A stretch of 64,000 bases of DNA from assembly GCA_910890315.1 (NCBI GenBank), contig CAJVGD010000052.1, positions 185,036-249,035 of the forward strand, written 5' to 3'. Shown in pieces: positions 27,101 through 64,000 of this stretch. A model generated the notes under the pieces. It saw only the letters and a list, made by a program, of their open reading frames with translations. It was not told the origin of the DNA and did not search any database. A program made the position numbers and the translations under genes. Source of the stretch: Serendipita indica DSM 11827 (taxonomy: Eukaryota > Basidiomycota > Agaricomycetes > Sebacinales > Serendipitaceae). Numbering within the stretch: position 1 is the first letter of the stretch; each line of letters starts with the position of its first letter.

Positions 27101-27506
27101 AGCTTGTTCCAAATCTTCCAAGCGTCCCCACCGTACGAAAGCGTTGTATGATTCAAGTGCTTTTGAATGCAAGCTTGAAATTTCGCTCTCCACGTTGTTG
27201 CCGTTTGTGCAGAGATTTTGTACCAACGATTCTAACTCACTAGAAGAGCGTAAGTTTTAGGCAGTGCCTTCAAAGTGAGACAAACCAAAGTCTGTGATCA
27301 TCGATTGCCTCCATTTTGGTCTGCTCCATGTCATTGATCAAAGTGGCTACACCGACAATCCTATCACTCGTCAACTACAAATTGTGACAAGAAATGACTC
27401 ACTTGAGCACCAAATTGTCGTCATCACATGTTGTTGCTAATGTCCCCAAACTCTCTAACATATTTCTTAGTCGCCGGGATACATCGTTCACAGCTATTTG
27501 AGACAT
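24171..27506 (-). CDS. TPR-CHAT protein, caspase-like HetF-associated protease, 1064 aa
   Basis: Four exons close in frame without correction: 27506-27403, 27360-27286, 27239-25010 and 24956-24171 (introns 42, 46 and 53 bp). After a 60-residue N-terminus (MSQIAVNDVSRRLRNMLESL) come 8-9 TPR-like repeats of about 51 residues with the signature KPG-L-NLGNAL--RF-RLG-L. A helical linker (ALEWAEQGRSIVWQNLL) follows, then the CHAT domain from about residue 740. The His/Cys dyad is present: His931 in WAHLACHG and Cys973 in FLSACETAMGD; the end, WLPFIHIG, is standard. CHAT domains are caspase-clan proteases; bacterial TPR-CHAT (Craspase) and separase show such enzymes cutting specific protein partners. 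In fungi the substrates are unknown. The TPR array probably binds a partner and controls the protease. No membrane segment is seen. The gene appears functional although retroelements flank it on both sides. Confidence 0.9.
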
Positions 27507-31259: not shown

Positions 31260-31387
31260 GAGACCTGACGTAATTGCTCTGGCCTCCGAGAGTCGAGGCT
31301 TAGGCTCACGCGTATACCACTCGTGACAGCACTAAAGGATCAAATTCACCAGTAATCTCGCCTCCGCGCACCCACTGCTACACAAAC

Positions 31388-34300
31388 ATGTCTACAAAGG
31401 ATTTCAGTGCGATCCCAGTCCTCACAACGGGCAACTACCTCGCATGGTCCCAAAAGATAGATGGATATTTCACACTCAACAACCTCGATGACCTTGTCTA
31501 CGGACTCGAGCTCAGCCCTGACTCAGCACCCAAAGACCCTTCCACTGGTACGGAAGGCGAGGGGAGTGAGAGTTCAGCCTCTTCCAAACAATACGTTGCT
31601 GATAATGCTAACGAATGGAAACGCCGCGCAAAACAGGCCTCCGCAGCCATCACACTCACTGTCGATGAGACCAACATGAGCCAGATCCGCAAACTCAAAG
31701 GGGATCCGGTCGCAATGTGGAATAAACTCGAGTCTATTCACAATGCAAAGTCATCAGTGACCCGCTTCAATGCGCTTGAGGCATTCTTCACCAAGACGAA
31801 GGCCGAAGGAGAGCCTTTGGCGTCGATCACAGCCGCCACCAATGCCCTCGAGGAGCAATTTAGATCACTCTGGACGACAGACTACGATGTAGACGCACTA
31901 CTGAACGACCCCGCTATGATGTCAAGCCTCCGCATGATCCCGCCTGAATCAATTCACGTCCGAACTTCGCTACTCTGCCAGCCAAATCTCACCTGAGATG
32001 TAATGATGCTCTCGTCAACGAGGACAATCAGCAGCGCAGGAACTCGCAGCCAGCCATCGCACTCCGGGCAGCCACTTCCCAGCCCATTACTTATCGCAGT
32101 ACACCTCCCCACCTCACGACCAAAGCCCACGGCCGCTGAACGCACACCAGGTGCCATATGCGATCATTGTGGCAAACGGAACCATACAGCCGCCCAGTGC
32201 TGGTCGAAGGCTGAAGCGACTGTCGCAAGCAAGAGGCCGCACGTGTTGCCAGCACTACAGACGGATCAACTACTGTACCAAATCCCCATGCCGCTCATGC
32301 AAGCCCTCTCCTTACCATCCACGGCTAGATCTGACCTGAACGCCGACACAGGGGCTACTCGGACAATGATGAGTGACGAAAGTTACTTTACTATGCTCCG
32401 CCCTTGGTCAGGTCGATCAAACTGGCCAATGGTGAAAGGATCTTCCACTGGAGAAGGGACGTTGTGTTTCAGCCGTGGATAGATGGTTACTTTAGTTCTG
32501 ATCTCGTTACTTTCCCTAATGTCCTCTTTGCTCCCGACTTACAATCGAATCTCGTCTCAGTTCTCTCAATGGCACGCAAAGAAGGATATGACATTCGCAT
32601 TAATCCGAAGCAAATGGAGTTCTACCTTGATGGTAAACTCCAAATGACAGCTCGTATCGATGACGACTGCGTTGCTTACCTTAATGGACGCGTTCTCACA
32701 TCCGAACAAGCGCATGCTGCCAGTACACTCAAACTGACCGAGAGCTATGGCATCGACGCCTAGGCCACTATCATCACGATGGAGTTGACACTCTTATCCG
32801 TCATAATCTGTTAATGGAATCAAGCTGACTCCAATGCAAAGCCCGACCCTATATGTGCTCCATGTATCGCAGGGAAACAGACTCGAGCCCCTCACACCAC
32901 GCCAGCAACTCGAGCTACAACTCCATTAGATCGTGTCTTTATTGATCTTAAAGGCCCAATCAATGTCGAGTCCATGCCGCACCGTGCCAAGTACTGGATG
33001 GCCATGGTAGACGATGCATCTAATTTCGTCACGCTGTCACTTCTTCACTCAAAAGATGGGGCGTTCAGAGCATTCTGCGAGTTCCATAAGCTCGCTGAGA
33101 ATCAGACCGGCCAGCACTTGGTACACCTGCGAGACGATAAAGGTGGCGAGTTCAGTGGGAAAGAGTTTGAAAAGTACTGTATATCTGCTGGGATTACAAG
33201 GGAACGCACCATAGTTGCCACACCAGAGCAAAATGGACGGGTTGAGCGAGCAAACCGATGGATAGCTGAAGGGACAATTGCTAAACTCACAGAAGCAAAT
33301 CTTCCACCATCTTTTTGGGGTTTTGCTGCCCTTGCCACTGTCCATGAGTTCAACCGTGCCCGTGTTCACAATGGAAAGACGCCATATGAACACTGGCATG
33401 GTGAAACTCCCAGTGTCGATCATTCGAGTATTTGGATGTCTCGCCTATGTCTTTGTCCCAAAATCACAGCGTGATGCTCTCGATTCGCACACTGACAAGT
33501 GTATCTTCGTTGGGTATCCATCCGACTGCCCTGGCTGGGTGTTCTGGAACCCACAGACACGAAAGATTATACACAGTGACAGTGCTGTATCTGATGAGAG
33601 AGTCTTTCCAGGCACATCACTTGCAAAGGAATCGATTCCAAACCTCTCCGACTACGTCCAGCTACCAGATCTCGAAGAAGCCACTGTATATCCATCATCC
33701 ATTCCACCTCCAAACCCCCACCCTGCTGTTCACGTTGCAGGACGACCTGTACTACACCTATACTACCTGAGCCTGCACACGAGCCTGTCCTCCACCAGCA
33801 CCAGCTCAAGCGCAACCTAAACCCACAGCTGGCGCGCGACTGAGTCGTGAGCTTGAGCACTCACTGACAAAACCAATTTCGAGAAGGCTCCAAATCTACC
33901 AGCAGCGCGACGACACAGTCGCGCGTCAGCCAGGCACTTTGACTGAATCTGATTCGGATCTCGAATTAAATGAGAGTTTCGATGAAGATAACGTTCAATT
34001 AGCCACAGAAGATGCATCCCTACCTCGACTTCCAGCTCTTATGTGCCAACTAAAGCTCGACGCTGGAGACCCAAGCCCAACTTCAAAGCGCCTGACCATA
34101 TCCTGATTCCCATTGTTGATGGTGTTGAAGCTGCTTTAAACACATCTACAATCCGCGAGCCAACAACACTGGGAGCTCTGAAACGCCCCTGACGGCGACA
34201 AGTATGTCCAAGCGGCTATAGAAGAGTCAGAGCTCACCTGGAAAATGGCACGTGGAAGCTTGTGCGACTCCCACAAGGCAAAAAGGCTATCGGCTCACGT

Positions 34301-34440: not shown

Positions 34441-37066
34441 CACCATTTTTTTTCTTTTCATTTTTTTTTTTTGTTTAATTATTTTGGCAGTGGCACCGCC
34501 AATATAGCACATTGTCTAACTGGAGCCCTTACTGGGTTCCTCGGTTTCATTGGCGCGCATCTCTTGTAGCAGGCAGTTGCTCTCTCTCTCGCCGAGATCT
34601 CCTCTGGGTGTGGCTTGCTACATGCTACTTTTGTTTGCTTTCGATCGCCTTGACTGTCTGTGAAGTTGGTTTGGTTTCGATACGCGTTGTCTCTCTGGTG
34701 AGTTGGTTACTCTCTTTCCCTTCCGTTTGTGTCCTCCTCCGTCCCATCTTCAACCTCCCTGTCCTCCTGATAAACTTCAACGTCTCCTTGATTCCTCCTT
34801 TGTCCTAGTATCTCCGCTGGTTCTCTTGTCTTCACGCAATGCTCCTCCTATCTGCCTCGCGCTGCATTGTACGCTGGGCAGATGTGAGGAGATGAGTTCT
34901 GCATTTCTCCTCTCCACAGTGTGGGCCACGGTGCATCCGCTCTGTTGATGCGGTTCAGATGCTTGTTCAGTCCGATATGTCCTGTACGTAGCTGAATAAG
35001 TGCCGCTGCTTCTGCTCTCGTTAGCTCGTCTGTGATTTGGAGATATTTGTTGGATGGCATTGTCTCGTCGATGGGCCTGGTCCTGTCGTACCGTGCTGAA
35101 GATTTCCACTTGTCGTGTGCTGACTTCCTTGCTGCAAGTTTGAGTTCCTGTCTGAGTGCCGAGATATTCTGGGGAGGTGTCCTTCGTCCATGGTGGGAGT
35201 GTTGTTGCTGTGGATGATCCATCTGTGATGGTCTTCTTGGCCTCCTGTCCGCTGCTTCATTACCTCGATCCTTCATGACCTGGGACCCACGTGAGAGGAT
35301 CTGAGTTGATTGATCCTCGTCTCGTCATCGCTCGCCTCTACGAGTTCTTGTCTACACTTTGATCGTTGCGCAGTTCGTCTATTGCTCTGTGGATCTTGTG
35401 GATGATGTGTTGGCCGGCTTTGGCACTGACGTTCTCCATTCCTTGTATTGCTGCCTGGTTGTCGAGGCTGATCTTGATACGTGGTATGATGATCCTTTCC
35501 ATCTTGGCTAGCTGGACTTGAGTGCATTCCAACGAGTTCTCCTTTGTGTACCGTGTGCTCCGTGTCTTCTCCAAGCAGGAATCTTGCTGACTTTATATCT
35601 CCGTCTGTAGAGTACTGCACCTGCTCCTATCATGCCTTCCATTCCTGAGCCATCCGTATAAACTACTACCCCGCTCGTTGTTGCTGTTGTTGCTGTTGTC
35701 CACCTCTTTCGCTAACATCCGACTCCTCTATTGAGATAGTGAATGGGTTAGTGGCGTTGGGGTTGCGTGATGCTGGGGTGATGGTTTGAGGTCGTCTACT
35801 TTGAGTCGATGGAGTGGAAGATGCGATGTAGGGGGGCGTTGTGCCTGGAGGAGTCCTGATGCTCGTTTCACAAATTTGAGGATGGGTAGCGGGCAGGCTT
35901 GCCAGCCGGGCCGCCGCCTTCTGGCATGTGAGGCGTAGAGTTTCTTCGATTGGTAGCATATTGAGGTGCGCATCAAGGGTATCTCCTGCTGTTGTGCGGA
36001 TAGCGCCTGTGATACCGATGGCGGCTCTACGTTGGACGGCTTGCAGCTTCTTGGTGATGGCTACGGATCCCATCCGGCGTGCGGAGTCTGGCTTGGTGTA
36101 CAGTGGGGTGTACCAGATGTCTGCAGCGTATGTGATGCGAGGAATGGCAACGGAGTTGAAGAGTTGGCGGCCTGAGCGGATTGGGAGGCCATGGAATGCC
36201 CTGTGTATACGCAAGAATAGTGAGGTCCACTTTACTGCCCTTGTGTGCACGAGCTCCTGGTGCTTGTTCCACCGCAGTGACTGGTCGATCACACTACCCG
36301 CAACTGCAACTGTCAGGCTGAATCGTTACTGTTGACGTTCTGCCATTGCTGTCCTTTGGCCTCGAGGACCAGGGATGTGAGCCTTTGCGCTTTTCGGATG
36401 ACATGGTGAAGTCGACAAGCCCGAGTTTGTTGTTCTGAGTGGTGAGGAAGTGCGAACGTGACCAGTCTAGTACGCCTCCTTCACGTTCCATCATGTCCTT
36501 CAGTCCGAGGTGCGTGTCGTGGAAGTTCTGGCCAATGGCGATCAGGGTAGAGTCGTCCACAAACCCGAGGGTGAGCTGGTCCTTGCTGTTTGCGATTCCA
36601 GTAGTGGGGCAATGTAGAATAGGTAGAGGATCATCGAGTGGGCATCCTTGGCTGTTCGCTGGTGATAGCGCGGGGTGCGGAGTGCACCTCGTCGAATTTG
36701 AGGCGCGTGGATCTGCCTGTCAGCATGTTCTCGAGAGTCTGCACATACTCCTCTGGGATCTTTTTGCTCATGTTCTGCATGAGGACTGGCTTGACAACAT
36801 TGGGGAATGCTGCTTGGATGTCGAGAAACAGTGCACACCTTGACTCCTCCATGCCTTCTGATTGTGCTTGTGAGAAGGTGAAGGGCGTCCGTTGTTGTCC
36901 TTCCTGGTCGACCACCGAACTGAGAGTGTGGGAGCAGTGCATAGTGCTCGGACATGTAGGTGAGGTCCTCCGCCATGAGTGCCAAGAGAAGCTTTCCGAG
37001 GGTGTTGAGGAGCGCGATCGGTCGGTACGCTTTGGCTATATTGTACGCTGGCTTCCCTGGCTTTCC
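34441..37066 (-). mobile_element. 5'-truncated LINE (family A): RT C-terminal half, RNase H, 3' UTR
   Basis: The minus strand matches the LINE at 43-49 kb from the RT fingers (KPGKPAYNIAKAYRPIALL) to the poly-A, present here as T-rich DNA at 34446-34480. The RT active-site motif is intact (FVDDSTLIAIG), unlike the full-length copy. RNase H and the C-terminal Cys/His region (HICPAYNAARG) are split over several frames. It is inserted into copia element 3. Its 5' junction at about 37066 does not return to copia sequence, so a deletion accompanied or followed the insertion. Confidence 0.85.
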
Positions 37067-37373
37067 ATCAGGAAAATCTGTGGATCTAATTAGCGCACCA
37101 GTAGCGTTTGTTCTAATGGTTGGCAAGTTTAGCCTTATATAAGTCTAAATGTAGCTAATAGATGGCTTACCACCAGTTAATTAGCCTAAGTCTGTATTGA
37201 TTGGACTACCAGTGTAATGAATAGCACTTACATGTTCTCACTCTCTTCAGAATGAGCGATGTCTACGTGGAAATTGCATATTCACCCTTAGACTCTTTCT
37301 TAAAACTCAGTGCTCCCTTCTCAGCTCATGTGAAATATATATTATTCCTATTGTAAGCTAAACAGGACCCTCT

Positions 37374-41109: not shown

Positions 41110-41200
41110 GGTTATGAGCCCTGAGCTCTAACCATCGACAAAACGATTACACCCCTATTTGTCAGACTCTTTATAATACACATATCAGCAAGCGATCGCC

Positions 41201-43245
41201 ATGGGAGAATACAAACCATCATATACAATCGATAGACTCAACTCGGGAAACTGGGAGTCGTGGAGACTTCACATGCAGGCGCTCCTAGAAGAGCGAGAGC
41301 TCTGGGATATCGTCACAGGTGCATCACCCAAACCAGTCACAGGTCCAACAGAATCGGACACGCAAAAGGTGGCACTGGAGGAGTGGAATAAGAAGGATGG
41401 AAAGGCCAGGCGACAGATGATTCTGTGCATGGATAGCAGCGAGCTGCGTGGTACAAGCGGAGCCACTACTTCGAAAGCACTATGGGATCTGTTGGTCTCA
41501 CGGAAGGAGTCGGCAGGAAGTGCTGGGCTGAATAGTGCGCTAGCATCGCTATTCCAAGCGAAGGCCGAAACTGAGGCAGACATTCCGGAGCATCTTACAA
41601 AGATCAAAGAACTCCAAGCGCGTATCAACACCTACGGGTTAAAATATGCGCTTAATCTGCCCGATTGGATGTTTACGGCAATCATGATCAACACTTTACC
41701 AAGTTCTTGGGAGGCGTTTACTAATGCGTATGCGGGGTCCCTAGTTGCCAAGAAAAGTGACGAAGAGGCTTCCCCATATCGTGTTAGCTCTCAGGAGATG
41801 GAATCAATCCTTATGGATGAGTGGAGACGACGAAACCCCAGCGGCACAGTGGTTGAAGAGACGGCACTCTTCACAAAGCAAAATGGGAATAATAGGGGAA
41901 TTAGGACGAATGAAAAGATGAAGTGCTTCAATTGCAATAAAATGGGGCACAAAAAGGAGGATTGCTGGGCACCCGGAGGTGGCTCAGAAGGAAAAGGGCC
42001 AAGGCAGAAATCGTCAAATGGTGGAAGGGGAGGTGGCCATAGAGCCAACTTCACTGACGTTGACAAAAACCCATTCAAATTGGTGTACTCAATAGAATCA
42101 AGCGAAGCCTTTACTCCTTATACGTGGCTTGCTGATTCAGCGTCATCAACACATCTCGCATTAAAGCGGGAGTTCTTCACGGAATACGAACCACTAAACA
42201 ACATGACGATTCGACCCATATCTGGAACACCAATACCCGCTGCAGGTCGCGGCACAGTTTTGCTAGATTTTGATCTAGGAACGTCACGGATTACCCATAC
42301 GCTGAAAGACGTCTTACACGTCCCAAATGCAAAGCATAACCTTGTTTCGACAAGCAGAATCGACGCGGCAGGCCTACACATGGTATATGGTGGCGGCATG
42401 TGCCAAATCACAAGAGGAAGGCGTATAATGGGGACCGGACGATGCGTACAAGGAATGTACGTACTAGATGCGAAAGCAAGAGGGCGCATGGAGCGCATAA
42501 TGACCGTATCGGAGGAGAAAAGCATTGGCTGGGACGAACTACACCGGCGTTTTGGGCATGTATCGACAGCAGCGCTGATGGAAATGAAGAAGAAGGGCAT
42601 GGTTAATGGATTAAACGTCGACGAGACGAGCAAAATGACGGATTGCGAGGCATGCATCAAGTCAAAGCTTGCGCACCGTCCATTTCCAGCTGAGGCATCA
42701 ACAAGGGCAGACAAGCCTGGAGAAAGAACCTACAGCGACCTGTGGGGACCATGTCAGACAACAAGCATAGGAGGAGCACGATATTTTATGACGCTCACCG
42801 ACGATTATTCACGCCGATGCTGTGTAATATTCCTACGAGACAAATCACAGGCAGCAGAGCGTATGAAGGAGTACATCACCTGGGTCAAACGACGATGGGA
42901 TCGACAACCAAAGGTGATAGGAGTGGATAATGGGAGAGAATTTGTCAACCAGACGCTGCAGAGTTGGTGCCAGAGCCAAGGCATCGAACTTCAAAAGACA
43001 GCACCTTACTCACCCAGTCAAAATGGCGTTGCCGAGCGATTCAACCGCACACTAGTCGAGCTATCACGAGCTATGTTGATAGCAAGGAACCTACCGAACT
43101 ACCTGTGGGCAGAGGCAGTCAGATATGCGGCCTATGTGCGTGGATGCGTACCCTCGAAAGCTCTGGGGGACATCACACCACATGAGGCATGGACTGGCCA
43201 GAAACCAGATGTAGTGCACTTGAGAGAGTTTGGCGCAAGGACTTT
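41201..43245 (+). mobile_element. Ty1/copia element 2, gag-protease-integrase in one open frame
   Basis: One uninterrupted frame from the ATG at 41201 encodes gag (LNSGNWESWRLHMQALL), a zinc knuckle CFNCNKMGHKKEDC, a protease-type WLADSASSTHLA (the usual DSGAS becomes DSASS), pre-integrase HRRFGHVSTAALM, CEACIKSKLAHRPF, and integrase DDYSRRCCV, VIGVDNGREF, YSPSQNGVAERFN. It stops being copia around 43245, where the 5' end of a LINE joins in frame and leads to a stop at 43426. RT and RNase H are absent. Of the copia elements here this has the best preserved coding frame, so it was probably interrupted recently. Confidence 0.88.
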
Positions 43246-43358
43246 TGGACCTAACCACCTGCGCGGCGTCAGCGACCAAACTAGATCATACGACACGAAG
43301 GGGTCGAACCAGCATATATCAAACGTAGTAGAGCAATTCGAGCAGGAGGCCGACCGGC

Positions 43359-45086
43359 ATGGCAGCGACAGGGAGCGCAGCAGCGAGGAGAAGCCAAATG
43401 AGGTCGGAGATGACAGGAATAGATAAAGAGATAGTACACGATAGGGACTCAGCAATCAAATACATGAAGAAGCGAGGATGGTTAGAGGATGACACGACCA
43501 TCACAACAGTGCTCATGGCGGACATCTGTCGGCAGGCAGCGGAAAAAGCGGGAGTGAGTCAAGAAGCGAAACACATGCTGAAAGCCTTCTCTTTTGTGCT
43601 CGAGACGGCAGCAGTGGACCCTCTCCTCGAAAGCTTCAACAAGACAGCTACCGCAAAACTCGATAGCCTAGTCGACGCGACAAAGCTGAAGCTCAGCCAA
43701 ACTATCGAGTCAACCACCAAGCACCTGGACGCCGTCAGCTTGAAGTACAGCGAACTCACCATCTCAGCTTCCGAAGCGGTCGCGGCTCTCAAAGCGGCAC
43801 CAGTTCATCGACTGTACAGCCAAGCACTAGCAAGCAATGCATGCACCAAGCTCAGCCAATCCCTCATCCTCGACGACGCCAAAGCAATCAACATAGTCAA
43901 CGCTAGGGAACGACTAGTCCTATTCAACACTCCAAGCGCCGTCGCAAAGGAACGAGGAATATACACTAGGGACGACATCAACGCTTACAAGGACACACTC
44001 AACGTAGCGCTAGAGAAACTCACGGATGGAGCAAGCAAGAAGCGGATAGTAGGCTTGTGCATTATACGCACCGGGATGCTCCTGGAGCTGGACTCTGCAG
44101 AATCCGCTAGGTGGCTAAAGGAGAATAACAGGTGCGCAGAGATGGTAAAGAAGGCTTACATCTCGAGAGAAGAAGAAACGAAAGTCATCCCTCGCGCGCA
44201 CGAGCTGATGGTACGCTTCATCCCTGTGGACTTCGACCCCCACGAAGAGGAAAGCCTGCACTCAGTGGAATTGGAGAACGGCCTACCGCCACACTCAATC
44301 ATCTCTGCATCCTGGATCAAGGACCCGTCAAGGAGGTACGAAGGACAAGGATACGCCAATGTCAAGATCAACTGCGCCTCACCCAAAGTAGCCAACCACA
44401 TGATCCTCGGCCCCACAAGAATTGGTAACCACTCCGTCAAGGTGCAAAAAGAACATAGGTTAGTACCCATCTGCGCCAAATGTTCTCACCATGACCACTT
44501 CCTGGCGGCATGCAAGGTGGAGAGGTTCACCTGCCGATTCTGCGCGCAAGAGCACAGCTCTTGGGACTGTCCGGACAAAACGCAGACCAAATGCACCCCA
44601 TGCGGGTCCAGCCGACACTCCTCCGGGGACGAAAGGTGCATAGAAAGCAAGTCCAGACAGGACAGGCAAGCGGAACATGCGCCAGAAACGAGATCCAAAT
44701 TCTTCTTCACCAAGGACCGATGGACATATAACGAGTCAATCAATGCCCCATGGAACTCGGGATACCTGCGCCCAGAGATCGAGACCGAGACCTCGCAAGA
44801 ACAAGCAGGCAAGCAGCTCACAACGGCGGCTGCCAATGCCTCACAGGGAGTCACCAACAAGTCCAGAAAGATCAACCAGATGAAAAACCGACAGATAACA
44901 CTTGCCCAATACGGCATCCCAACACAAGCCGCACGAAGCGTCCAGCACCCCGGGCCAACTCCCAAGACCCAAACCACCCCCGATTCATCGCAAGAAACAA
45001 CCTCTTCACCATCCTCACTGCCCCCCGCTCAAACCCAGCCATCCATCGCGACCAGTAATGCCCGGCCAACCGACCCCTCTGCATGA
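43359..45086 (+). CDS. LINE ORF1, gag-like RNA-binding protein, 575 aa
   Basis: Intact ATG-started frame. The N-terminal half is helical (coiled-coil-like, DSLVDATKLKLSQTIESTTK), which would support multimerisation. The C-terminal half has three Cys/His clusters: CAKCSHHDHFLAAC, CRFCAQEHSSWDC and CTPCGSSRHSSGDERC. A Gln/Thr/Pro-rich tail follows. Such proteins coat element RNA. The stop TGA overlaps the ORF2 start as ATGA (45083-45086). A longer upstream open frame is copia-derived, so 43359 is the best start. Confidence 0.85.
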   Translation: MAATGSAAARRSQMRSEMTGIDKEIVHDRDSAIKYMKKRGWLEDDTTITTVLMADICRQAAEKAGVSQEAKHMLKAFSFVLETAAVDPLLESFNKTATAKLDSLVDATKLKLSQTIESTTKHLDAVSLKYSELTISASEAVAALKAAPVHRLYSQALASNACTKLSQSLILDDAKAINIVNARERLVLFNTPSAVAKERGIYTRDDINAYKDTLNVALEKLTDGASKKRIVGLCIIRTGMLLELDSAESARWLKENNRCAEMVKKAYISREEETKVIPRAHELMVRFIPVDFDPHEEESLHSVELENGLPPHSIISASWIKDPSRRYEGQGYANVKINCASPKVANHMILGPTRIGNHSVKVQKEHRLVPICAKCSHHDHFLAACKVERFTCRFCAQEHSSWDCPDKTQTKCTPCGSSRHSSGDERCIESKSRQDRQAEHAPETRSKFFFTKDRWTYNESINAPWNSGYLRPEIETETSQEQAGKQLTTAAANASQGVTNKSRKINQMKNRQITLAQYGIPTQAARSVQHPGPTPKTQTTPDSSQETTSSPSSLPPAQTQPSIATSNARPTDPSA

Positions 45087-48000
45087 ACAACGGCACCCCA
45101 CTCACAACAAGCAGTTATCTAAGAATCATACAGATCAACCTCAGAAAATCCTTTGACGCCCACCACAAATTCATCAACACAGCCTCACCAGACAACTGGG
45201 ACGTTATTGCAATCCAAGAACCAGCACTCAACTCCCTCGGCAACACTCGGGCTAACAGGAAATGCCAGTCGTTTTACCCATCCACCAAGGCTCATGAAGG
45301 CCACGGCAGAATACGTGCTGTAATGCTAGTCAGCACACGCGTCGGTGCGTGCATGCAGATAGACATTGATTCAAGCGACATTGTAGGAATAAGAGTGGGT
45401 ACTGCATTGGGCCTCTGCACCATCTACAACATCTACAATGAAGGCACCAGCAACGATACATTGGACCAGCTCACCCAACACCTTGAAACGCACAATACGC
45501 CAACGTGGGCCAACCGGCTCAAAGTATGGCTCGGGGACTTCAACAGGCACCACCACACCTGGGAGGGGGACAACAACCGTCACCTACGCAGTCTGACTGA
45601 CGCCATCACTCCACTACTCAACCTGATCATCGAACACGGCATGCAGCAACTCCTACCAGCCGGAATACCCACACAAGAGGAGAACGGGAGTCAAACTAGG
45701 CCAGACAACGTGTGGGCATCAGGCGATATTGTCCACCGACTTGTAGAGTGCAATACATGGCCAGACCTTCGTCCAACAACAACGGACCACATCCCAATCA
45801 CCTCCATCATCGACCTCTCAGTTGCAAAAGTGGCCATCACACCAAGGCCAAACTACAGAAGGACAAACTGGGAGAAATTCCGGGAAGGCATGGAAGACGC
45901 AGTCAAGAACGACCCAAGACTGGTAATTGAACCAACGCGCCCCGAGGAGCTGGAGCAGCTTGTCGAGCTACTCACAGGTTACATGCAGACAAAGCTCAAG
46001 GACATGACCCTGCTCAGCAAGGACCCAACATTCCGCAAGCCGTGGTGGAACAAGCAATGTCAGGATCTTCACAAATGCAAATGCCAAGCATACACAGAGT
46101 CGCGGTACTGGCAAGCATCCCCAGCCCACCCAAGTCATCAGTTTTACAAGGCACTGTGCCAAGAGATGAAGGAGATGGTACGAAGGAGCAAGGAGGCATT
46201 CTGGTGGAAGTGGATCGACGAGGCATCCGACACTGACCTATGGAACATCAACCGCTTCATCAAGCGAGGCGCCAACGATGGAAGTAGCAAGAGAATCCCC
46301 CCACTCAAAAAGCCGAATGGCACACTAACGCAAAGTAACGAGGAGAAAGCAGAGCTACTATGCAACGCATTCTTTCCACCTCCACCTGCACTCACTCCCC
46401 AGACCAAGGCCGGCACCTCAAACTGCACTTCCTCAGTGGACACCATACTCGATAAAGAGGGTGAGCAAGGCAGTTGGACGTCTCAAGCGTGACAAGGCAC
46501 CAGGCCCGGATGGTATCCCAAATGCAGCAATCCAGGAAGCGCTCCCAGCTATCAGTTGCATCCTCAAGAACATATTCAATGCGGCCATTCGACTCCGGCA
46601 CATTCCAAAGCAGTGGAAGGAATCAACTACAGTGGTCCTACGAAAGCCAGGGAAGCCAGCGTACAATATAGCCAAAGCGTACTGACCGATTGCGCTCCTC
46701 AACACCCTCAGAAAGCTTCTCTCGGCACTCATGGCGGAGGACCTCACCTACATGTCCAAGCACTATGCACTGCTCCCACACTCTCAGTTTGGTGGTCGAC
46801 CAGGAAGGTCAACAATGGATGCCCTTCACCTTCTCACAAGCACAATCAAGAAGGCATGGAGGGAGTCAAAGGTGGCCAGCGCACTGTTTCTCGACATCCA
46901 AGCAGCATTCCCCAACGTTGTCAAGCCAGTTCTCATGCAGAATATGAGAGCAAAAGGGATCCCAGAGGAGTATGTGCAGACTCTCGAGAACATGCTGACA
47001 GGCAGATCCACACGCCTCAAATTCAACAAGGTGCACTCCGCACCCCGCGCTATCAACAATGGGAACAGCCAAGGATGCCCACTCTCGATGATCCTCTACC
47101 TATTCTACATTGCCCCACTACTGGAGATTGCAAACAGCAAGGACCAGCTCACCCTCGGGTTTGTGGACAACTCTACCCTGATTGCCATTGGCCAGAACTT
47201 CCACAACACGCACCTTGGTCTGAAGGACATGATGGAACATGAAGGAGGCGTCCTAGACTGGTCACGTTTGCACCACTCACCACTCGAGAACAACAAACTC
47301 GGGCTCGTGGACTTCACCATGTCATCCGAAAAGCGCAAAGGCTCACATCCCCTGGTCCTCGAGGCAAAGGACAGCAATGGCAGAATGTCAACAGTAACGA
47401 TTCAACCTACCGACAGTTGCAAGTTACTTGGAGTGGTGATCGACCAGTCACTGCGGTGGAACAAGCACCAGGAGCTCGTGCACACAAGGGCAGTAAAGTG
47501 GACCTCACTATTCTCGCGTATACACAGGGCATTCCATGGCCTCCCAATCCGCTCAGGCTGCCAACTCTTCAACTCTGTTGCCATTCCTCGCATCACATAC
47601 GCCGCAGACATCTGGTACACCCCACCATACACCAAGCCAAACTCCATACGCCGGATGGGATCCGGAGCCATCACCAAGAAGCTGCAAGCCGTCCAACGTA
47701 GAGCCACCATCGGTATCACAGGCGCTATCCGCACAACAGCAGGAGATACCCTTGATGCGCACCTCAATATGCTACCAATCAAAGAAACTCTACGCCTCAC
47801 ATGCCAGAAGGCGGCGGCCCGGCTGGCAAGCCTGCCCGCTACCCATCCTCTCTCCAAATTCGTGAAACGAGCATCAAGAGGACTCCTCCAGAGGCACAAC
47901 GCCCCCCTACATCGCATCTTCCACTCCATCGACTCCAAAGTAGACGACCTCGAAACCATCACCCCAGCATCACGCAACCCCAATGCCACTAACCCATTCA

Positions 48001-49064
48001 CTATCTCAATAGAGGAGTCGAGGATGTTAGCGAAAGAGGCGGACAACAACAGCAACGGCAACAACGAGCAGGTAGTAGTTTATACGGATGGCTCAGGAAT
48101 GGAAGGCATGATAGGAGCAGGTGCAGTACTCTACAGAGACGGAGTACGGATAAGGTCAGCAAGATTCCTGCTTGGAGAAGACATGGAGCACACGGTACAC
48201 GAAGGAGAACTTGTTGGAATTGCACTCGGAGTCCAGCTAGCCAAGATGGAAAGGATCGTCATACCACATATCAAGATCAGCCTTGACAACCAGGCAGCAA
48301 TACAAGGAATGGAGAACGTCAGTGCCAAAGCCGGCCAACACATCATCCGCAAGATCCACAGAGCAATAGACAAACTGCGCAATGATCAAAAGCATAGACG
48401 AGAACTCGTAGAGGCGAGCGACAATGAGACGAGGATTAATCGATCGACTCAGATCACTCTCACGTGGGTCCCAGGTCATGAAGGGATCGAGGGTAACAAA
48501 GCAGCGGACGAGGAGGCCAAGAAGGCCATCACAGATGGATCATCCACAGCAGCAACACTCCCACCATGGATGAAGGACACCCTCCTGCAAAATATCTCGG
48601 CACTCAGACAGGAACTCAAACTTGCAGCAAGGAAGTCAGCACACAACAAGTGGAAATCTTCAGCACGGTACGACAGGACCAGGCCCATCGACGAGACAAT
48701 GCCATCCAACAAATATCTCCAAATCACAGACGAGCTAACGAGAGCAGAAGCAGCGGCACTTATTCAGCTACGTACAGGACATATCGGACTGAACAAGCAT
48801 CTGAACCGCATCAACAGAGCGGATGCACCGTGGTGCCCACACTGTGGAGAGGGAAATGCAGAAAACATAACTCATCTCCTCCACATCTGCCCAGCGTACA
48901 ATGCAGCGCGAGCCGAATGGGAAGGAGCATTGCGTGAGAAGACGAGAGAACCAGCGGAGATACTAGGGACAAAGGAGGGAATCAAGGAGACGTTGAAGTT
49001 TATCAGGAGGACGGGGAGGTTGAAGATGGGACGGGAGGATACAAACGGAAGGGAAAGAGAGTAA
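45083..49064 (+). pseudogene. LINE ORF2: endonuclease-RT-RNase H, inactivated
   Basis: From the ATG at 45083: AP-type endonuclease (IIQINLRKS, IAIQEPALNS, WLGDFNRHHHTWE, TTTDHIPITS), RT (KAPGPDGIPNAAI, LFLDIQAAFPNVVK, GNSQGCPLSMILYL), RNase H (VVVYTDGSGMEG, HEGELVGIALG, ISLDNQAAIQG, WVPGHEGIEGNKAADEEAKK) and a C-terminal CPHCGEGNAENITHLLHIC. Three lesions: one extra G at about 46458-46460 shifts the frame; TAC-TGA-CCG at 46683 is a stop where the other copy has CGA; and the RT motif reads FVDN instead of FVDD (about 47160-47171). The endonuclease and RNase H domains look intact. Confidence 0.88.
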
Positions 49065-51119: not shown

Positions 51120-51830
51120 GCTATATTTGCCGTGCGTCAACACGCTGCTAACACCCTTTCTTGCACCCTTTTACTCCGTCCTCGCTCCATTGTCTTCAAC
51201 ATCCTTTGCCACCCGTCAATGCCACTCGTCTACGTGGTGCTCGTCTACATTGCATCTGACACTCATCTACGTTGCATCTGCCATGCTCGTCTACATTGCG
51301 TCTGGCCCCTTGCCTACGCTGCATCTTGGTCATTCATCTACACTGCCCTAGCTTGCCCTTTACTACTTCTCCATTGTCGGTGCTGTTAGGTTAGTGTTTC
51401 TATCTGCCACGTATCATGCCGCTAACACCTTATCTTACACCCTTTTACTCCGTTCTTGCCGCATTGTCTTCAACATCCTTTGCCACTTGTCAATGCCACT
51501 CCTCTACGTTGCATCTGCCGTGCTCATCTATATCGCATCTGGCCACTTGTCTACGCTGCATCTCGGTCACTCATCTATGCTGCCCTAGCTTGCCCTTTAC
51601 TTCTCCATTGTCGGTGCTGTTAGGTCAGTGTTTCTATCTGCCACGCATCAACACACCACTAACGCCTTATTTTACACCCTTTTACCCCGTCCTTGCTGCG
51701 TTGTCTTCAACATCCTTTGCCACCCGTCAATGCCACTTGTCTACATTGCATCTGCCGTGCTCGTCTACATTGCATCCGGCCGCTTGTCTACCTGCATCCT
51801 TCTTACTCGTCCCTTGATTTTCATTCCAAC
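51120..51830 (+). repeat. degenerate tandem repeat, about 3 units of 234 bp or more
   Basis: Units begin with variants of CGTCAACAC-CTAACACC, run through TTGTCTTCAACATCCTTTGCC and CTACGTTGCATCTGCC, and close with TTCTCCATTGTCGGTGCTGTTAG. Unit 1 is about 51120-51390, unit 2 about 51391-51625, unit 3 about 51626-51830 (incomplete). Inside, a shorter motif around GTCTACATTGCATCTG is itself reiterated. Frames through it are by-products of the repeat. Confidence 0.7.
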
Positions 51831-53950: not shown

Positions 53951-56900
53951 CTATGAGCTTGTTCGAACTTTGGTCCACAATGTCCCACACTGGAAATTAG
54001 TGAAATCAAGTTTGGTCGCTCTAAGGTGACTTGAAGTGGGCATAGTCAGAACAAGACGTGGGTGCTCCAGTCCATGACGATTATTAGGTGGTACCCAGAA
54101 GAGGTATTGACCAGAAGACTCTACCCATCCGTCAGGCAGCAAAGAACAATCACCAAATCTAGGTATAAAGAGAACTGGAAAAAACTTGATATGGCCAGAG
54201 AAACGTGTTCTATTTGATAGATTACCTGCATTTAGCATACGGTCAGTCACCATAACAAACTGACCCTACAAACCAAAGAGATATTCAGAATCGACTCACC
54301 ATTGTCCGAACTCGAGATTTGAATTGTCCTACTAATGGAGCCAGAGACAACTTGTGTCCCATCTGGTGAGAATGCGACAGCCATGACCTCGTCTTCATGA
54401 CCTTGGAGTGGCTCTCCCAATGGCTGGCCAGTCTCTGCATCCCACTGCCGAATTGTGCTGTCCCTTGAGCCAGAGACGATTCGTGTGCCATCTGGTGAGA
54501 ATGCGACAGCGTTCACCGAGGATTCATGATCTTGGAGTGGCTCTCCCAACGGCTGGCCAGTCTCTGCATCCCACTGTCGAATTGTCCTGTCCCTTGAGCC
54601 AGAGACGATTCGTGTGCCATCTGGTGAGAATGCGACAGCGTTCACCGAGGATTCATGACCTTGGAGTGGCTCTCCCAATGGCTGGCCAGTCTCTGCATCC
54701 CACTGTCGAATTGTCCTGTCCAAAGAGCCAGAGACGATTCGTGTGCCATCTGGTGAGAATGCGACAGCCATCACCGGGTCTTCATGACCTCGGAGTGGCC
54801 CTCCCAACGGCTGGCCAGTCTCTGCATCCCACTGTCGAATTGTCCTGTCCCTTGAGCCAGAGACGATTCGTGTGCCATCTGGTGAAAATGCGACAGCGTT
54901 CACCGAGGATTCATGACCTTGGAGTGGCTCTCCCAATGGCTGGCCAGTCTCTGCATCCCACTGTCGAATTGTCCTGTCCAAAGAGCCAGAGACGATTCGT
55001 GTGCCATCTGGTGAGAATGCGACAGCCATGACCTCGTCTTCATGACCTTGGAGTGGCTCTCCCAATGGCTGGCCAGTCTCTGCATCCCACTGTCGAATTG
55101 TCCTGTCCAAAGAGCCAGAGACGATTCGTGTGCCATCTGGTGAGAATGCGACAGCGTTCACCGAGTATTCATGACCTTGGAGTGGCTCTCCCAATGGCTG
55201 GCCAGTCTCTGCATCCCACTGTCGAATTGTGCTGTCGCTTGAGCCAGAGACGATTCGTGTGCCATCTGGTGAGAATGCGACAGCGTTCACCGAGTATTCA
55301 TGACCTTGGAGTGGCTCTCCCAATGGCTGGCCAGTCTCTGCATCCCACTGTCGAATTGTGCTGTCCAAAGAGCCAGAGACGATTCGTGTGCCATCTGGTG
55401 AGAATGCGACAGCGTTCACCGAGTATTCATGACCTTGGAGTGGCTCTCCCAATGGCTGGCCAGTCTCTGCATCCCACTGTCGAATTGTGCTGTCGCTTGA
55501 GCCAGAGACGATTCGTGTGCCATCTGGTGAGAATGCGACAGCGTTCACCGAGTATTCATGACCTTGGAGTGGCTCTCCCAATGGCTGGCCAGTCTCTGCA
55601 TCCCACTGTCGAATTGTCCTGTCCTTGAGCCAGAGACGATTCGTGTGCCATCTGGTGAGAATGCGACAGCGTTCACCGAGTATTCATGACCTTGGAGTGG
55701 CTCTCCCAATGGCTGGCCAGTCTCTGCATCCCACTGTCGAATTGTGCTGTCGCTTGAGCCAGAGACGATTCGTGTGCCATCTGGTGAGAATGCGACAGCC
55801 ATGACCGGGTCTTCATGACCTTGGAGTGGCTCTCCCAATGGCTGGCCAGTCTCTGCATCCCACTGTCGAATTGTCCTGTCCCTTGAGCCAGAGACGATTC
55901 GTGTGCCATCTGGTGAGAATGCGACAGCCATGACCGGGTCTTCATGACCTTGGAGTGGCTCTCCCAATGGCTGGCCAGTCTCTGCATCCCACTGTCGAAT
56001 TGTCCTGTCCCTTGAGCCAGAGACGATTCGTGTGCCATCTGGTGAGAATGCGACAGCCATGACCTCGTCTTCATGACCTTGGAGTGGCTCTCCCAATGGC
56101 TGGCCAGTCTCTGCATCCCACTGTCGAATTGTCCTGTCCCTTGAGCCAGAGACGATTCGTGTGCCATCTGGTGAGAATGCGACAGCGTTCACCGAGTCTT
56201 CATGACTTTTGAGTGGCTCTCCCAATGGCTGGCCAGTCTCTGCATCCCACTGTCGAATTGTCCTGTCCAAAGAGCCAGAGACGATTCGTGTGCCATCTGG
56301 TGAGAATGCGACAGCGTTCACCGAGGCTTCATGACCTTGGAGTGGCTCTCCCAATGGCTGGCCAGTCTCTGCATCCCACTGTCGAATTGTGCTGTCGCTT
56401 GAGCCAGAGACGATTCGTGTGCCATCTGGTGAGAATGCGACAGCGTTCACCGAGTATTCATGACCTTGGAGTGGCTCTCCCAATGGCTGGCCAGTCTCTG
56501 CATCCCACTGTCGAATTGTCCTGTCCAAAGAGCCAGAGACGATTCGTGTGCCATCTGGTGAGAATGAAACTGCTGTGACACTACCCTGGTGACCTAGCAG
56601 CGTTCTGGGAAGCTCACGAAATGTTTCTTCAAGCCCTCTGGTCACAATTAACGAATTCATATACTCCTTTAAACCCTCCGTATGAAGTACCGACTTCTGT
56701 GGACTGAATGGGAGAGATGAGATGTAGATGTGGTGCGCTGTCTTGGATTGGTACAGAGAATGCCATCAAAACCGTCTGATGTCATTCATCCGACCTCGGA
56801 TCTCTTGCTCAAGCTATCTGTTGCTTTAGTAATCGGAAGGTCTCAAATAGTCCACGCACACTCTTATGTTGCGTCGCAGCTCGCAATCCAGATACTGCCC

Positions 56901-59720
56901 GCATGACTCCTCCAGTCACGCTGAGGATCTCCATCCAATAGAGTGCGAATGGACTTTTGACTATCCGTGCCAGCTCATTCCTTAGCCTGCGACCCCAGTC
57001 ACTGTCCATTGCAGCAACATGGAACGACCAGTGCAAACTAGCATAGCGAAGCCTCCGCGAAATGAATTTCGCCACCCGGGCGTCAAGGTCTGTAATCTGC
57101 CTATTCAGATAGAAGGATGACTCGATTTGGCAAATATTAAACTTGAGCCCCTCCTTGCGCGATTTGAGAGTGTGAAGACACCATGACGCGGCTTGGCCAT
57201 GTGCACGCGCGATGTTGATAAGATTCCTGTCGCAATCGCCGATAATTTCGGTGCTACAACGTCGTCGAAGGTATTCGACAAACGTGGGATGGCGAAACTG
57301 GATCAAGCATGTGATTGGATCCTGCTTGAGCACGCTTCCCAGATTCTGTACTAGCGCACTGGCACTTCCATGTACACTCGCATGCTTCGCAAGGTCGTCT
57401 AAATCGTCCATGGTGAGTGGCTCAATTGCGGAAAGCAGTATACCGAGCATTTCAACGATGACTGGTTGGGACTCTTGCTCAATCCGCTCGAAAATCACGT
57501 CGTATAGACCGTCGATGGCACCAGGCTCATCGATGGACATCAGGCGATCATATATGACCTCTGTATTGATCACCGATAACTTGTTGTCGAGCATCCGGCA
57601 CGCAGTGCTTGCCCAAATAAATAGCCCGTTGGCCTTATTGACCAGTCGCTGCCTCTTATCGTAGGCTAGCAGACTGCCGAGCGATCGATGGACGTATATC
57701 GCAATGTCATCGATGTTGTCGCGGTGGCTAGCATCGTGGAGCCGATCTGTCAACTTGGCCTTGATCGAAAGAGGTTCTAAAACCCTTTCAACCACAGGGT
57801 CTGGTCGACTTGTGATGAATATCCGAAGATTCTTGCTCTCCTGAGCAGCAGAAGCGAGAGTCTCAACCAGTTTTTTCTCTGTGCTCCAGACTTGCATTCG
57901 TCGAGTGCATCTAAGACGAGGACTACTTGCTTCTGTTGATGCTGGAGGGGACCGGTGATGAGCATTCGAAACTGTTGATCAAAAGAGGCTCGTAGGAGAG
58001 CAGGATTCCGCTTTACTATCTCCGCAATCGGTGTCCCAAGCTCCGGAATATGTTGAGCGAGTTCCCTCGCCATGGTCGAGCAAAACTTTTCGGTGTCTGA
58101 GCTTTCGCTGCTTGCCATGGAGAAGAAGAATCCGCCGCCTAAGATTCCTTGCTTCTTCCACTTCTCCATTGCAGTCATCGCGACGGTCGATTTTCCAGAG
58201 CCAGCTATATCACATAGCCAGAAGATCGGTTTTTCTGATGAATCGCCATCGGCCCATTGCGAGATTGTCTCGAGGACAGCCTGGCGAGTTCCTTTGTAGA
58301 CAGGTGGTATGGACAGAGGATGGGGCGAATGCGACTACCGGCAGTTGAGATACGAAAGCGCGTCGTCTTGAGAATATTAGTAAACCTTCGTGTACACGAG
58401 ATAGTTCATACCTGGTTGAGGGATGGTTCCTCCCTTCACGACGGCTACTCGTGGGTCAGGAAAGAATCAGCGATGAGTATGTTACGAACTGCGCAAGTTA
58501 TTCTCCATAAACCATTTTGTGCACGGCATCGGGGCGTTCTCAGCGCACTCCGTGAGATAGTAAGCAACTGCTTGGTAATCTTCACTCTCTTCCGTCTGGA
58601 ATCTGACAAGGTTCTGGTGATCGCTATGGAGTACGACCGCAATAGCGTTTTGATCGCCAGCGATCACCGCCGAGTGATACGGAACATTCTATAAGCCAGT
58701 TAGCACCCACCCATAAGACGATTTAGCGCACCTACCAAACGTATCTGCTGTTCGTCGGCTCCGGTGCTGTATTCCTCGCAGAAGAAGACGCTGTTTATCT
58801 TTTTACTCGCGGTGAGATACAAGCTCTGGATGTTTTCGAGTTCATCCGAGTGAGCGTGAAGGTTCTTGACAATGACGTCTGTTGATTCCATACATGGTGC
58901 TGCCAGGCGAACGATCTTCTTAAGGAGCGTTTCTTCTACGCCGGAATGCGGGGTTCCAAAGAAGAGGATGGAATGGGTGGATACCACGATATTTCGTAGG
59001 CCGTCTTTTGATTCCAGGTCCTCATTGTTGCATATGACAAGCGCCTATGAGACCGTCAGGGTCAAAATGTAGTGGACATCCTCGGACGAACCCATTTGAG
59101 AATGATGCCTCCCAAATCGTGAGCAACAAAGATGATGGGGCGCTAGGGTGATTAGGGAACAAGGCACCGGTTTACGGATGCCACTCACTCGAGGAGCATC
59201 TTTACGCTTCCGTAAAATAGCTTGAGCCAGACCGACGGCGTGGCGGCGCATAGTCTGGTCGATACGCACTCCGTACTGTGAGTGTCGGCGTCGTAGCCAT
59301 AGGTCAGGATACGGGCACGAGGCAATGAGGACGGCAAGAATTGGCGTAGCCAAAGAACGCCATCGTCTGTCATCCAAGTCTTTTCTCTGTGACCATTCGC
59401 CGTGGATTGCTATGATACTGGAGTGGGAGGTCAGCACGAAGCGACTACAGTGCCCCGAATGTGCTTACTCGACGGTGGGATCCTCTGGGCATACCAATTC
59501 CAGGAATCCAAGGTCTTCCTTCTTGGTTTTGGACGTAGAGGATTTCAATGTTCTAGGATGTTCACTTGCAGCAGTCCGATCGTTCAGTCGTTGCCAAAGT
59601 CGGGCAACATGATTTAGAACCTCGTGGAAATGGCCGTGCTTTGCCTTGCTCTTGTGACATTGTGCGCTCTTGAGTTGTTCAAACAGTCGATAGTGTCGTC
59701 TGAACGGGCCTTAGGACGCG
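53951..59720 (-). pseudogene. NLR-type protein: alpha/beta-hydrolase - NACHT - WD40, frameshifted
   Basis: On the minus strand: N-terminal helical part (FRRHYRLFEQLKSAQ), a serine-hydrolase-like domain (CPEDPTVDIIAIHG, ILTYGYDAD, IIFVAHDLGGIILKW, LFFGTPHSGV), NACHT with Walker A IAGSGKST (58185-58202) and Walker B VVLVLDALDEC (57895-57927), a helical region (LDDLAKHASVHGSASALVQN), about 18 WD40 repeats (54300-56610), and a C-terminal exon ending FTNFQCGTLWTKVRTSS. Introns with good borders split the hydrolase part. Single-base frameshifts lie near 58290, 57872 (A run), 56815, 56760 and 55625, and a compensating pair near 59395 and 59252. Fungal NLRs of this build govern allorecognition and cell death; here no full product can be made unless the shifts are assembly errors. 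The start codon was not found. Confidence 0.85.
54300..56610 (-). repeat. array of about 18 near-identical 129-bp WD40-coding repeats
   Basis: Each 43-residue unit reads GHE-xx-V-x-AVAFSPDG and [20 protein letters not shown]. DNA identity between units is so high that most differ only in the two codons after GHE (YS, AS, DS, SS, DE, DP), the following N or M, and the SGS-(S/L/R)-D-(S/R)-T positions. The first unit ([15 protein letters not shown]) and last unit (QVVSGSISRTIQI) are divergent, as expected for array ends. One base is missing at about 55625 (CCTT for CCCTT). Confidence 0.9.
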
Positions 59721-62570: not shown

Positions 62571-63898
62571 TGGTGAGACCCCTTCCTACTCGTATTTCAG
62601 ACGGTTTGGTAACACTTGTGCAGACTTTGTGACTCGACACGGACTTTTCGTACCTAGTGGCGTACACCTCTCATGGACTAGTGGTTCTCTCAAAGCCGTG
62701 TCATCGTACCGTTCTTGTCTAATACATTTACCTTTTGTATGCCACTGCTAGTGTTTCGCACCGTATGCAGAATGCAATATGTCTTCTTGATATCAAGCCT
62801 TCGTTGCGATAACAGTCTAGTGGCAGACAATCTCTTTGTGATCGTAGTATCGCCGTCTGGCAGTCTATGAGGCAGCGATGATACGGTGGTCAGGAGTCAA
62901 AAGGGCGCTGATATTGGAGTCGAAATACCACTTGAAGCGTCTACAGCTCAGCAAGAGCAACTACGAATGTCTCTGTTCTCCTGTCCTCGATACCAGCCCC
63001 TGGGCATCGGCAGTGCTCAACCTCGAGGTGTATACAGTACAATGACATGATACCCCATGAACGAGATGAATCGGTCATCCTCCTCTGATCTCTCCTCACC
63101 TAGCACCTTGTGTTAGTTTATTGCCTTGTTGTCTCGTCTATGTATATATGGCGAGTGAGTAGCCAGTCAAACCTACTGGTTTGACTACAACGCTCACTTG
63201 CCTAAGCATACTCTGCTCTGTTCAACACTTTGTGTAACCTCTAGCTGTGGGAAATGGAACAAGCTGGATTCTGCCCTGACTTAGCCGTCAGACCACTAGA
63301 CTATAGTGTCCCTCTTTTCCTCTAAAGTCACAGTACCTCCATGACCCCTGTTACTCAGGGTATTCCTAACCTGGTCGGCCGGGCTCTGACCTGTAAGGTG
63401 AGCCAACTTGGTGCAGGGCCCAGGGGGACAAATCGCCGCTCTAAGCCCTCTCGGTGTCTGAATAACGTATAAGAGTGTTCTGCTGTCAGATAAGTTCTAT
63501 TGTGTAAGAATATTGTCATATTTTAACCCGGCGTCTCTTATAGGCGTCTTGGAAGTCTTAATGAACCTCAACGGAATTGGAGCTAAGGAACGCATAGGCC
63601 GACTAGAAGTGCATGTAATATTATTCTAAATCAAGTCTGAAAAAGTTTGAGGTATATAATTCGAGCCTCTGTCCTGCTGGAAGGGCCTAGTTAACCCGCC
63701 GTGTGCGGAGATGAAGGACTGAAGCAGTCAAATGGTTACTAATAATGCATGGATGCTTGTATGCGTCTGTAATTTCATCGATAGACTGCATATATGTCGC
63801 ATATTTGGCCATCATGTGTTCCTAGATTACCACAAAGCCGCTACTACTCTTGGACATATGTAGAGACCACAGCTAGAGAGCGCCTTGCCTGCAATTTT
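62571..63898. other. intergenic, nothing recognised
   Basis: No convincing gene, tRNA fold or repeat was seen in this stretch. Confidence 0.4.
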
Positions 63899-64000
63899 TG
63901 TCAGGACTAACAGACAACGTAGTTAGGCTCACAGCGGTCGCTGATTAACTGAATCAAATACACTACCTAACAGACAACGTCTAGTTAGCTAATGTGGGCG
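63899..64000 (-). repeat. LTR of copia family 1, continues past window end
   Basis: TGTCAGGACTAACAGACAACG followed by the hairpin block and the second AGACAACGTCTA matches the first 100 bp of the LTR at 19512. Orientation is as for that element. Whether it is solo or borders an element is outside the window. Confidence 0.75.

Follow-up and report, generated by a model that had tools for sequence, protein, structure and literature searches.

The window, the whole stretch of 64,000 nucleotides analysed here, forms the end of a contig (C50) in a 24.7 Mb, 55-contig assembly of Serendipita indica DSM 11827 and has a G+C content of about 50%; the genome report for Piriformospora (Serendipita) indica gives 24.98 Mb and 50.68% G+C (PMC3192844). 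On its minus strand, from position 56594 down to 54274, it carries an array of 18 WD40 units with a period of 129 bp, recognised by PF00400 over both of its open frames and running from unit 1 (56594-56466) to unit 18 (54402-54274, the end of which is fixed by convention). TRF describes the array as 17.3 copies of 129 bp with 94% matches, and unit starts are spaced by 129 bp in 16 of 17 cases and by 128 bp in the other. The preliminary description of this DNA had placed about 18 near-identical 129-bp units at 54300..56610, which is borne out in number and, to about 30 bp, in position. The 15 full internal units (2-7 and 9-17), on which all variant counts for the window are based, are uniform, with a DNA identity of 89-100% (mean 94.8%), while the caps, units 1 and 18, are partly diverged. 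Compared at the protein level with one seven-unit stretch of the array, three further such stretches, two of which overlap it, show 92-94% identity, and the array is a ‘HIC’ repeat as defined by more than 85% identity over at least 100 amino acids. Long open frames also cross the array on the plus strand and were considered as antisense genes; the variation follows the minus-strand codons, and we therefore take them as by-products of a stop-free repeat.

The short unit is unit 8 (55564..55691, minus strand), which at 128 bp lacks one base and shifts the frame, and the array lies in two minus-strand open frames, one holding part of the linker and units 1-8 (55545..56765) and the other units 9-18 and the 3' end of the array (54247..55683). 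Upstream of the linker, an alignment of 21 copies points to a 46-bp intron between the NACHT and WD40 exons (56814..56859, minus strand), placed by eye on fungal-type splice sites and a branch point. It is preceded by a NACHT/NPHP3_N NTPase with a helical region (56809..58334, minus strand; frames 57777-58334 and 56809-57978). A fragment from the window matches PF24883 at E 4e-13 and PF05729 at 2e-6, as an NTPase of the NACHT type does. This region is split by a frame break in the window, and is a single open frame at two related loci, L021 (520 aa) and L023 (522 aa). The L021 frame matches PF24883 at E 1.7e-27, and its NACHT exon had no match among PDB sequences up to E 0.01.

The 5' part of the gene is predicted to encode an alpha/beta hydrolase of the SesB/DUF676-like type, in two exon-bearing stretches with approximate ends (58700..59041, and 59180..59420, where the hydrolase HG motif lies and the frame of the window copy is disturbed) and, between them, a short exon assigned by eye (59092..59142), all on the minus strand. 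Taken singly, the window's own N-terminal exons gave no Pfam match. The N-terminal counterpart from L023, spliced by hand, matches DUF676 (‘putative serine esterase’) at E 1.4e-4 with 21.9 bits, the cut-off being 20.3; next come PGAP1 (E 0.021) and Abhydrolase_6 (E 0.046), and no HET domain was found on it up to E 1. Among PDB sequences, the first hydrolase exon of L021 has matches only at E 0.37-0.65, and the spliced domain none up to E 1. From these matches the gene is best described as SesB/DUF676-like hydrolase - NACHT - WD40 and not as HET - NACHT - WD40. The short exon carries the motif AHDLGG where the nucleophile elbow GxSxG would stand. The same AHDLGG occurs in nine of nine near copies (the window and L021-L028) and AHNLGG in L029, L031, L032 and L034; a search with the elbow pattern gave no match in the other eight of the 12 distant loci. 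An esterase elbow is expected to carry a serine, so that an elbow of this kind makes a non-catalytic or unusual role of the N-terminal domain possible.

Elsewhere in the window, a TPR array of 135-bp units (about eight copies, 77% matches) lies on the minus strand at 24171-27256, followed by a CHAT domain (PF12770, E 3e-34) in a different frame; this TPR-CHAT gene is a second repeat-bearing gene in the window, possibly of the cell-death type. A caspase-fold domain (Peptidase_C14, E 2e-11) is found on the plus strand at 8652-9305. Further tandem repeats comprise a 484-bp unit in three copies of 99% (14769-16220) and, at 51239-51798, repeats of about 237 bp (2.3 copies, 86% matches), which coincide in part with arrays of 22-24-bp words.

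The array DNA has at least 243 matches in the genome. We compared 20 further array-bearing loci, L021-L028 as near and L029-L040 as distant copies, and saw more arrays outside this set, for example on contigs C5, C17, C18 and C2. Flanking sequence common to the near loci and the window aligns in blocks several kb long with about 88-95% identity. In the 1.8 kb upstream of the array, identity to the window is 88-94%, and identity among the near loci themselves reaches 99.33%. For the unit statistics the window and L021-L026 form the near group, in which 82 of 100 units, 59 of them distinct, were kept after removal of the units at either end of each array and of five units that deviate in length; L022 still contributes one last unit, the terminal unit of that locus not having been found. 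L027 and L028, which share the flanks and differ in unit consensus, are counted apart. The distant set consists of 105 internal units of exactly 129 bp from twelve loci; L035 and L034 overlap, and the first seven of 12 detected units of the former and the last seven of 13 of the latter were used.

Variation within the array is concentrated in very few codons. The 15 window units show 21 distinct variants, of which codons 4, 5, 7, 23 and 25 carry 11 where 2.46 are expected; in 20,000 random placements none reached 11 at five codons, the best reaching 10. All 11 are non-synonymous. The same codons hold 48 of the 66 off-consensus letters, or 57 if the linked silent changes of codons 6 and 22 are added. 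The ten distinct variants outside them, seven of which occur in one unit each, mean that the preliminary description was right about the focus and slightly too strong in calling the variation confined to a few codons. Across the near group, amino-acid entropy is 1.29-2.14 bits at the five codons and at most 0.54 at all others, and the 59 distinct units give a piN/piS of 3.56 at the five (0.407/0.115; 2.6-16 over 100 resamplings across loci), compared with 0.0115/0.0232 at 36 other codons. The distant loci have the same five codons as their most variable (2.29-2.93 bits, next 1.34). Two results count against a uniform picture: five-codon piN/piS in the distant loci is only 1.32 (0.478/0.362), and the 18 units of L027/L028 vary most at codons 4 and 23, with 5 and 7 modestly variable and outside the top five.

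This distribution bears on whether the array could be a decaying minisatellite, that is, a dead gene whose units are homogenised by neutral unequal crossing-over without selection. Tandem arrays do homogenise neutrally, and the window copy has frame breaks. Neutral turnover, however, would spread variants evenly, and here 11 of 21 lie in five of 43 codons and every one of them changes an amino acid; moreover, the same codons vary in the distant loci L032, L036 and L037, which have open NACHT and WD40 frames. We regard such neutral decay as improbable. Focused variation might instead be made by targeted hypermutation, through a diversity-generating retroelement or RIP, the more so as a reverse transcriptase is encoded nearby. 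This we consider scarcely credible: none of the 11 five-codon variants in the window (7 of 28 in the near group) is C>T or G>A and only one of 11 is a transition, which is unlike RIP; variants starting from A make up 3 of 11 (9 of 28 in the near group), so that the changes are not adenine-specific; and the nearby reverse transcriptase frame also carries RNase H, a combination we take to mark a LINE-like element. Elements that look LINE-like or Copia-like by eye lie at 43332-49064 (plus strand), 41177-43426 (plus), 21103-23950 (minus), 31304-33820 (plus) and 35666-37144 (minus), reverse transcriptase and RNase H being confirmed only for 46731-49064.

The variable residues appear to sit on the face of the propeller that binds partners. 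A model of units 9-15 is a confident propeller (mean pLDDT 97.4), every unit of which has its strands at residues 6-11, 17-22 and 27-31. Its best PDB matches are seven-bladed or highly repetitive propellers, among them 2YMU and the seven-bladed 7BIE (TM 0.93-0.94 by query length), bacterial or designed proteins that share the fold built of near-identical units but are only about 48% identical to the window propeller. In the model, codon 7 falls at the beginning of strand a, the loop ahead of that strand contains codons 4 and 5, and the turn from strand b to strand c contains codons 23 and 25. This puts the variable residues within or next to the d-a and b-c loops. Wu et al. give a sequence rule for the top-face interaction hot spots R1-2, R1 and D-1 (PMC3419727); applied by our own mapping, it makes codon 5 R1-2, codon 7 R1 and codon 23 D-1. 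Model, motif rule and published mapping thus support a predicted position in or beside the top-face loops, at the level of the model rather than of atomic coordinates, and argue against the buried core that the preliminary description had named as the contrary outcome. In bacteria, 19 loci were found that are 29-61% identical in their best segment, and a regular-expression scan detected at most four units per locus.

While the five codons vary, the remainder of the array is far more alike between loci than the flanking gene. Over the 21 pairs of seven near loci, the median third-position difference is 10.6% in the NACHT exon and 1.0% in the constant codons of the array (36 codons, leaving out the five variable codons and the linked silent codons 6 and 22). 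Between the window and L021 the values are 10.6% and 0.74%, and between the window and all six other near copies 10.6-16.8% against 0.7-3.3%; the smallest contrast, which counts against the general pattern, is that of L023-L026, with 2.9% in NACHT and 1.2% in the array. Purifying selection on the protein does not account for near-identity at silent positions. Whole units recur as well, 32 of 82 (six of 15 in the window) being found letter for letter at another near locus, and the number of units ranges from 7 to 18 across the nine near copies. The arrays could in principle be alike because they are young, the product of recent segmental duplication without later exchange, and several copies are indeed 98-99% identical upstream. 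The third positions of the window speak against this, since its NACHT exon differs at 10.6-16.8% of them and the constant codons of its array at 0.7-3.3%; so do the diverged caps beside uniform internal units, and L022 and L024, which are 99.33% identical over 1.8 kb upstream and have no exact internal unit in common. We therefore hold recent duplication alone to be very unlikely. Unit number and order differ among close paralogues of one genome. In a longest-common-subsequence comparison the 21 near pairs share 0-4 units, not beyond shuffled orders, a test of low power given the few exact shared units.

Linkage between variants suggests how much sequence is exchanged at a time. Within the blocks formed by codons 4-7 (block A) and 23-25 (block B), seven codon pairs are linked with z 5.7-29 in the near group, whereas eleven pairs between blocks, in the same or the next unit, give z -0.9 to 2.0; one of the eleven, 7-25, is nominally linked (P 0.04) and counts against full independence. 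Block A has 22 alleles and block B 12, and they occur in 50 combinations in the 82 units. Recurrent mutation could mimic part of this pattern, but several alleles differ by two or three linked bases, silent ones included. As linkage is tight within blocks and about nil between blocks some 50 bp apart, tracts shorter than one unit are probably exchanged, a length judged here from the decay of linkage. The preliminary description had assigned the array to the HNWD mode of unequal exchange with diversification at ligand-contacting residues. The same four codons do vary, with codon 4 in addition, and unit order and number do differ, here among paralogues; ‘unequal exchange’ by itself is too coarse, because the variable blocks of a unit reassort. 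The overall pattern indicates exchange of repeats both inside a locus and from one locus to another, among paralogues of a single genome. Units might also have been homogenised artificially when a repetitive assembly was polished, but polishing should then have flattened the five codons too.

Whether the gene is alive is a separate matter. Breaks interrupt the window copy in its NACHT region, in the linker that follows the intron and within unit 8, and the NACHT or array frame is broken in eight of nine near copies. L021 has an open NACHT frame of 520 aa and an open WD40 frame of 732 aa, and three of the 12 distant loci (L032, L036 and L037) have both frames open; open copies therefore exist. 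The breaks, and possibly part of the homogeneity, may instead be artefacts of an assembly with unpolished repeats, the gene being intact in life. Against the nine-copy consensus, the 2.9 kb upstream in the window has 11 indels, nine of them deletions and none a multiple of 3, and six of its seven one-base events are in homopolymers. This is partly like uncorrected long-read consensus error, so that the copy may not be a pseudogene; what the preliminary description reported as a frameshifted gene is broken in its letters, with one base missing from unit 8, and is perhaps whole in the organism. Such errors would leave the five-codon variation unexplained, and the window's indel/substitution ratio of 0.10 is not extreme beside 0.39 in L022 and 0.32 in L027; in the same region L027 has 22 indels and L028 only one. 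We rate assembly error a little below an even chance. Units that lack one base, in the same part of the unit, are seen in the window (unit 8), L022 and L025; they may have spread by exchange, or reflect recurrent slippage or a systematic error of sequencing. As for the window copy, it may be a pseudogene that serves as donor or an intact gene that looks broken through assembly errors, and the broken frames in eight of nine near copies may mean that selection on this subfamily is past, or may again be errors.

None of the nine near copies is more than 35 kb from a contig end. The distance is 7.4 kb in the window, about 7.6 kb on C40, 5.6 kb on C14, 34 kb on C1 and 26 kb on C29; C41, C51, C38 and C23, which carry the others, are 18-52 kb long. 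For the five copies on large contigs, it is the 5' end of the gene that faces the near contig end. Exact runs of three or two TTAGGG units were absent from the whole assembly and no tandem repeats were found in two contig-end pieces; as repeats themselves break assemblies, a subtelomeric placement of the near copies is only a possibility. The last 1.2 kb of the window (62800-64000) has its longest matches, at 92-97%, on C51, C21, C1, C29 and C23, which fits shared chromosome-end DNA or dispersed repeats. Taken together with the broken copies, the placement allows a more speculative reading, to which we give only modest weight, in which receptor copies, often broken, make up a dispersed, mostly contig-end and possibly subtelomeric library that donates half-unit cassettes to a few intact receptors. 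If true, the arrangement would resemble the silent gene libraries that feed antigenic variation, and as blocks A and B combine almost freely, each blade would be assembled combinatorially.

The explanation we favour, and judge likely as a whole, is that the array is the sensor part of a fungal NOD-like receptor, diversified at its ligand face and recombining. The near-identical units would fold into seven-bladed propellers; ectopic and intra-array recombination would copy units and half-units among a large dispersed family, through unequal crossing-over and through gene conversion of tracts between some tens and about a hundred bp long; and diversifying selection would keep variants at ligand-facing positions. 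The sensors might then recognise a variable partner, a molecule of another individual or of another organism, upon which oligomerisation of the NACHT domain would switch the N-terminal domain to a cell-death or defence response. For the window gene we infer every step that follows from a propeller with a diversified top face. In this family a ligand on the top of the propeller releases the NACHT switch, and the ensuing oligomerisation activates the N-terminal domain; in Podospora such activation ends in cell death upon contact with non-self.

It is with the HNWD/NWD genes of Podospora anserina (het-d, het-e and het-r) that the window gene has most in common. Both join a NACHT domain to WD40 units of very high identity (PMC1805685, PMC2873952, PMC12222747, PMC9262711). 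Codons 7, 9, 25 and 27 of the HNWD unit are reported to be positively selected around conserved codons 8 and 26 (Paoletti et al., PMC1805685); shifted by 2, these correspond to codons 5, 7, 23 and 25 of the unit described here, which have the same spacing and likewise a conserved V and a conserved D between the pairs. According to the same published work, the Podospora genes likewise vary at these four codons in each unit, evolve in concert between loci, differ in unit number and retain uniform repeats in degenerate copies. The reassortment of codon pairs also has its counterpart there, seen in mutants in which the pairs 7/9 and 25/27 are shuffled (PMC2873952). The two systems differ in that the N-terminus is SesB/DUF676-like here and HET in HNWD, that a fifth codon (4) is strongly variable here, and that the variation described here is among paralogues of one genome, not among strains. 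The window gene would work like HNWD, without being a member of the HNWD family.

The architecture itself is not peculiar to the window. SesB-like/NACHT/WD40 proteins are tabulated for P. indica, with 274 NLR candidates, and the window gene shares this architecture with those of P. indica and other fungi; highly conserved repeats, moreover, are common in fungal NLRs, amounting to 21.6% of WD repeats (PMC4986451). Unit-level exchange in P. indica is not described in the sections of that survey we consulted, and among the matches listed in the open-licence literature none concerned the exchange of WD40 NLR units, or a chromosome-end position of such genes, in basidiomycetes, Serendipita included. 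In the genome analysed here the NPHP3_N model has at least 150 matches, comprising all that were scored of 258 candidates; it also matches 9 of 14 prokaryote control genomes, and is therefore not specific to fungal receptors.

What our analysis adds to the knowledge of such receptors is how widely exchange reaches within a single genome, how linkage decays from one half-unit block to another, and that exactly the HNWD codons recur under a different N-terminal domain. Since linkage drops from strong at a distance of about 10 bp to near zero at about 50 bp, long reads could be used to study directly how long the cassettes are and which copies donate them. The scheme of recognition diversity best studied in fungi, that of the ascomycete Podospora, would thus extend, at the same codons, to a basidiomycete with a very large repertoire of receptors.
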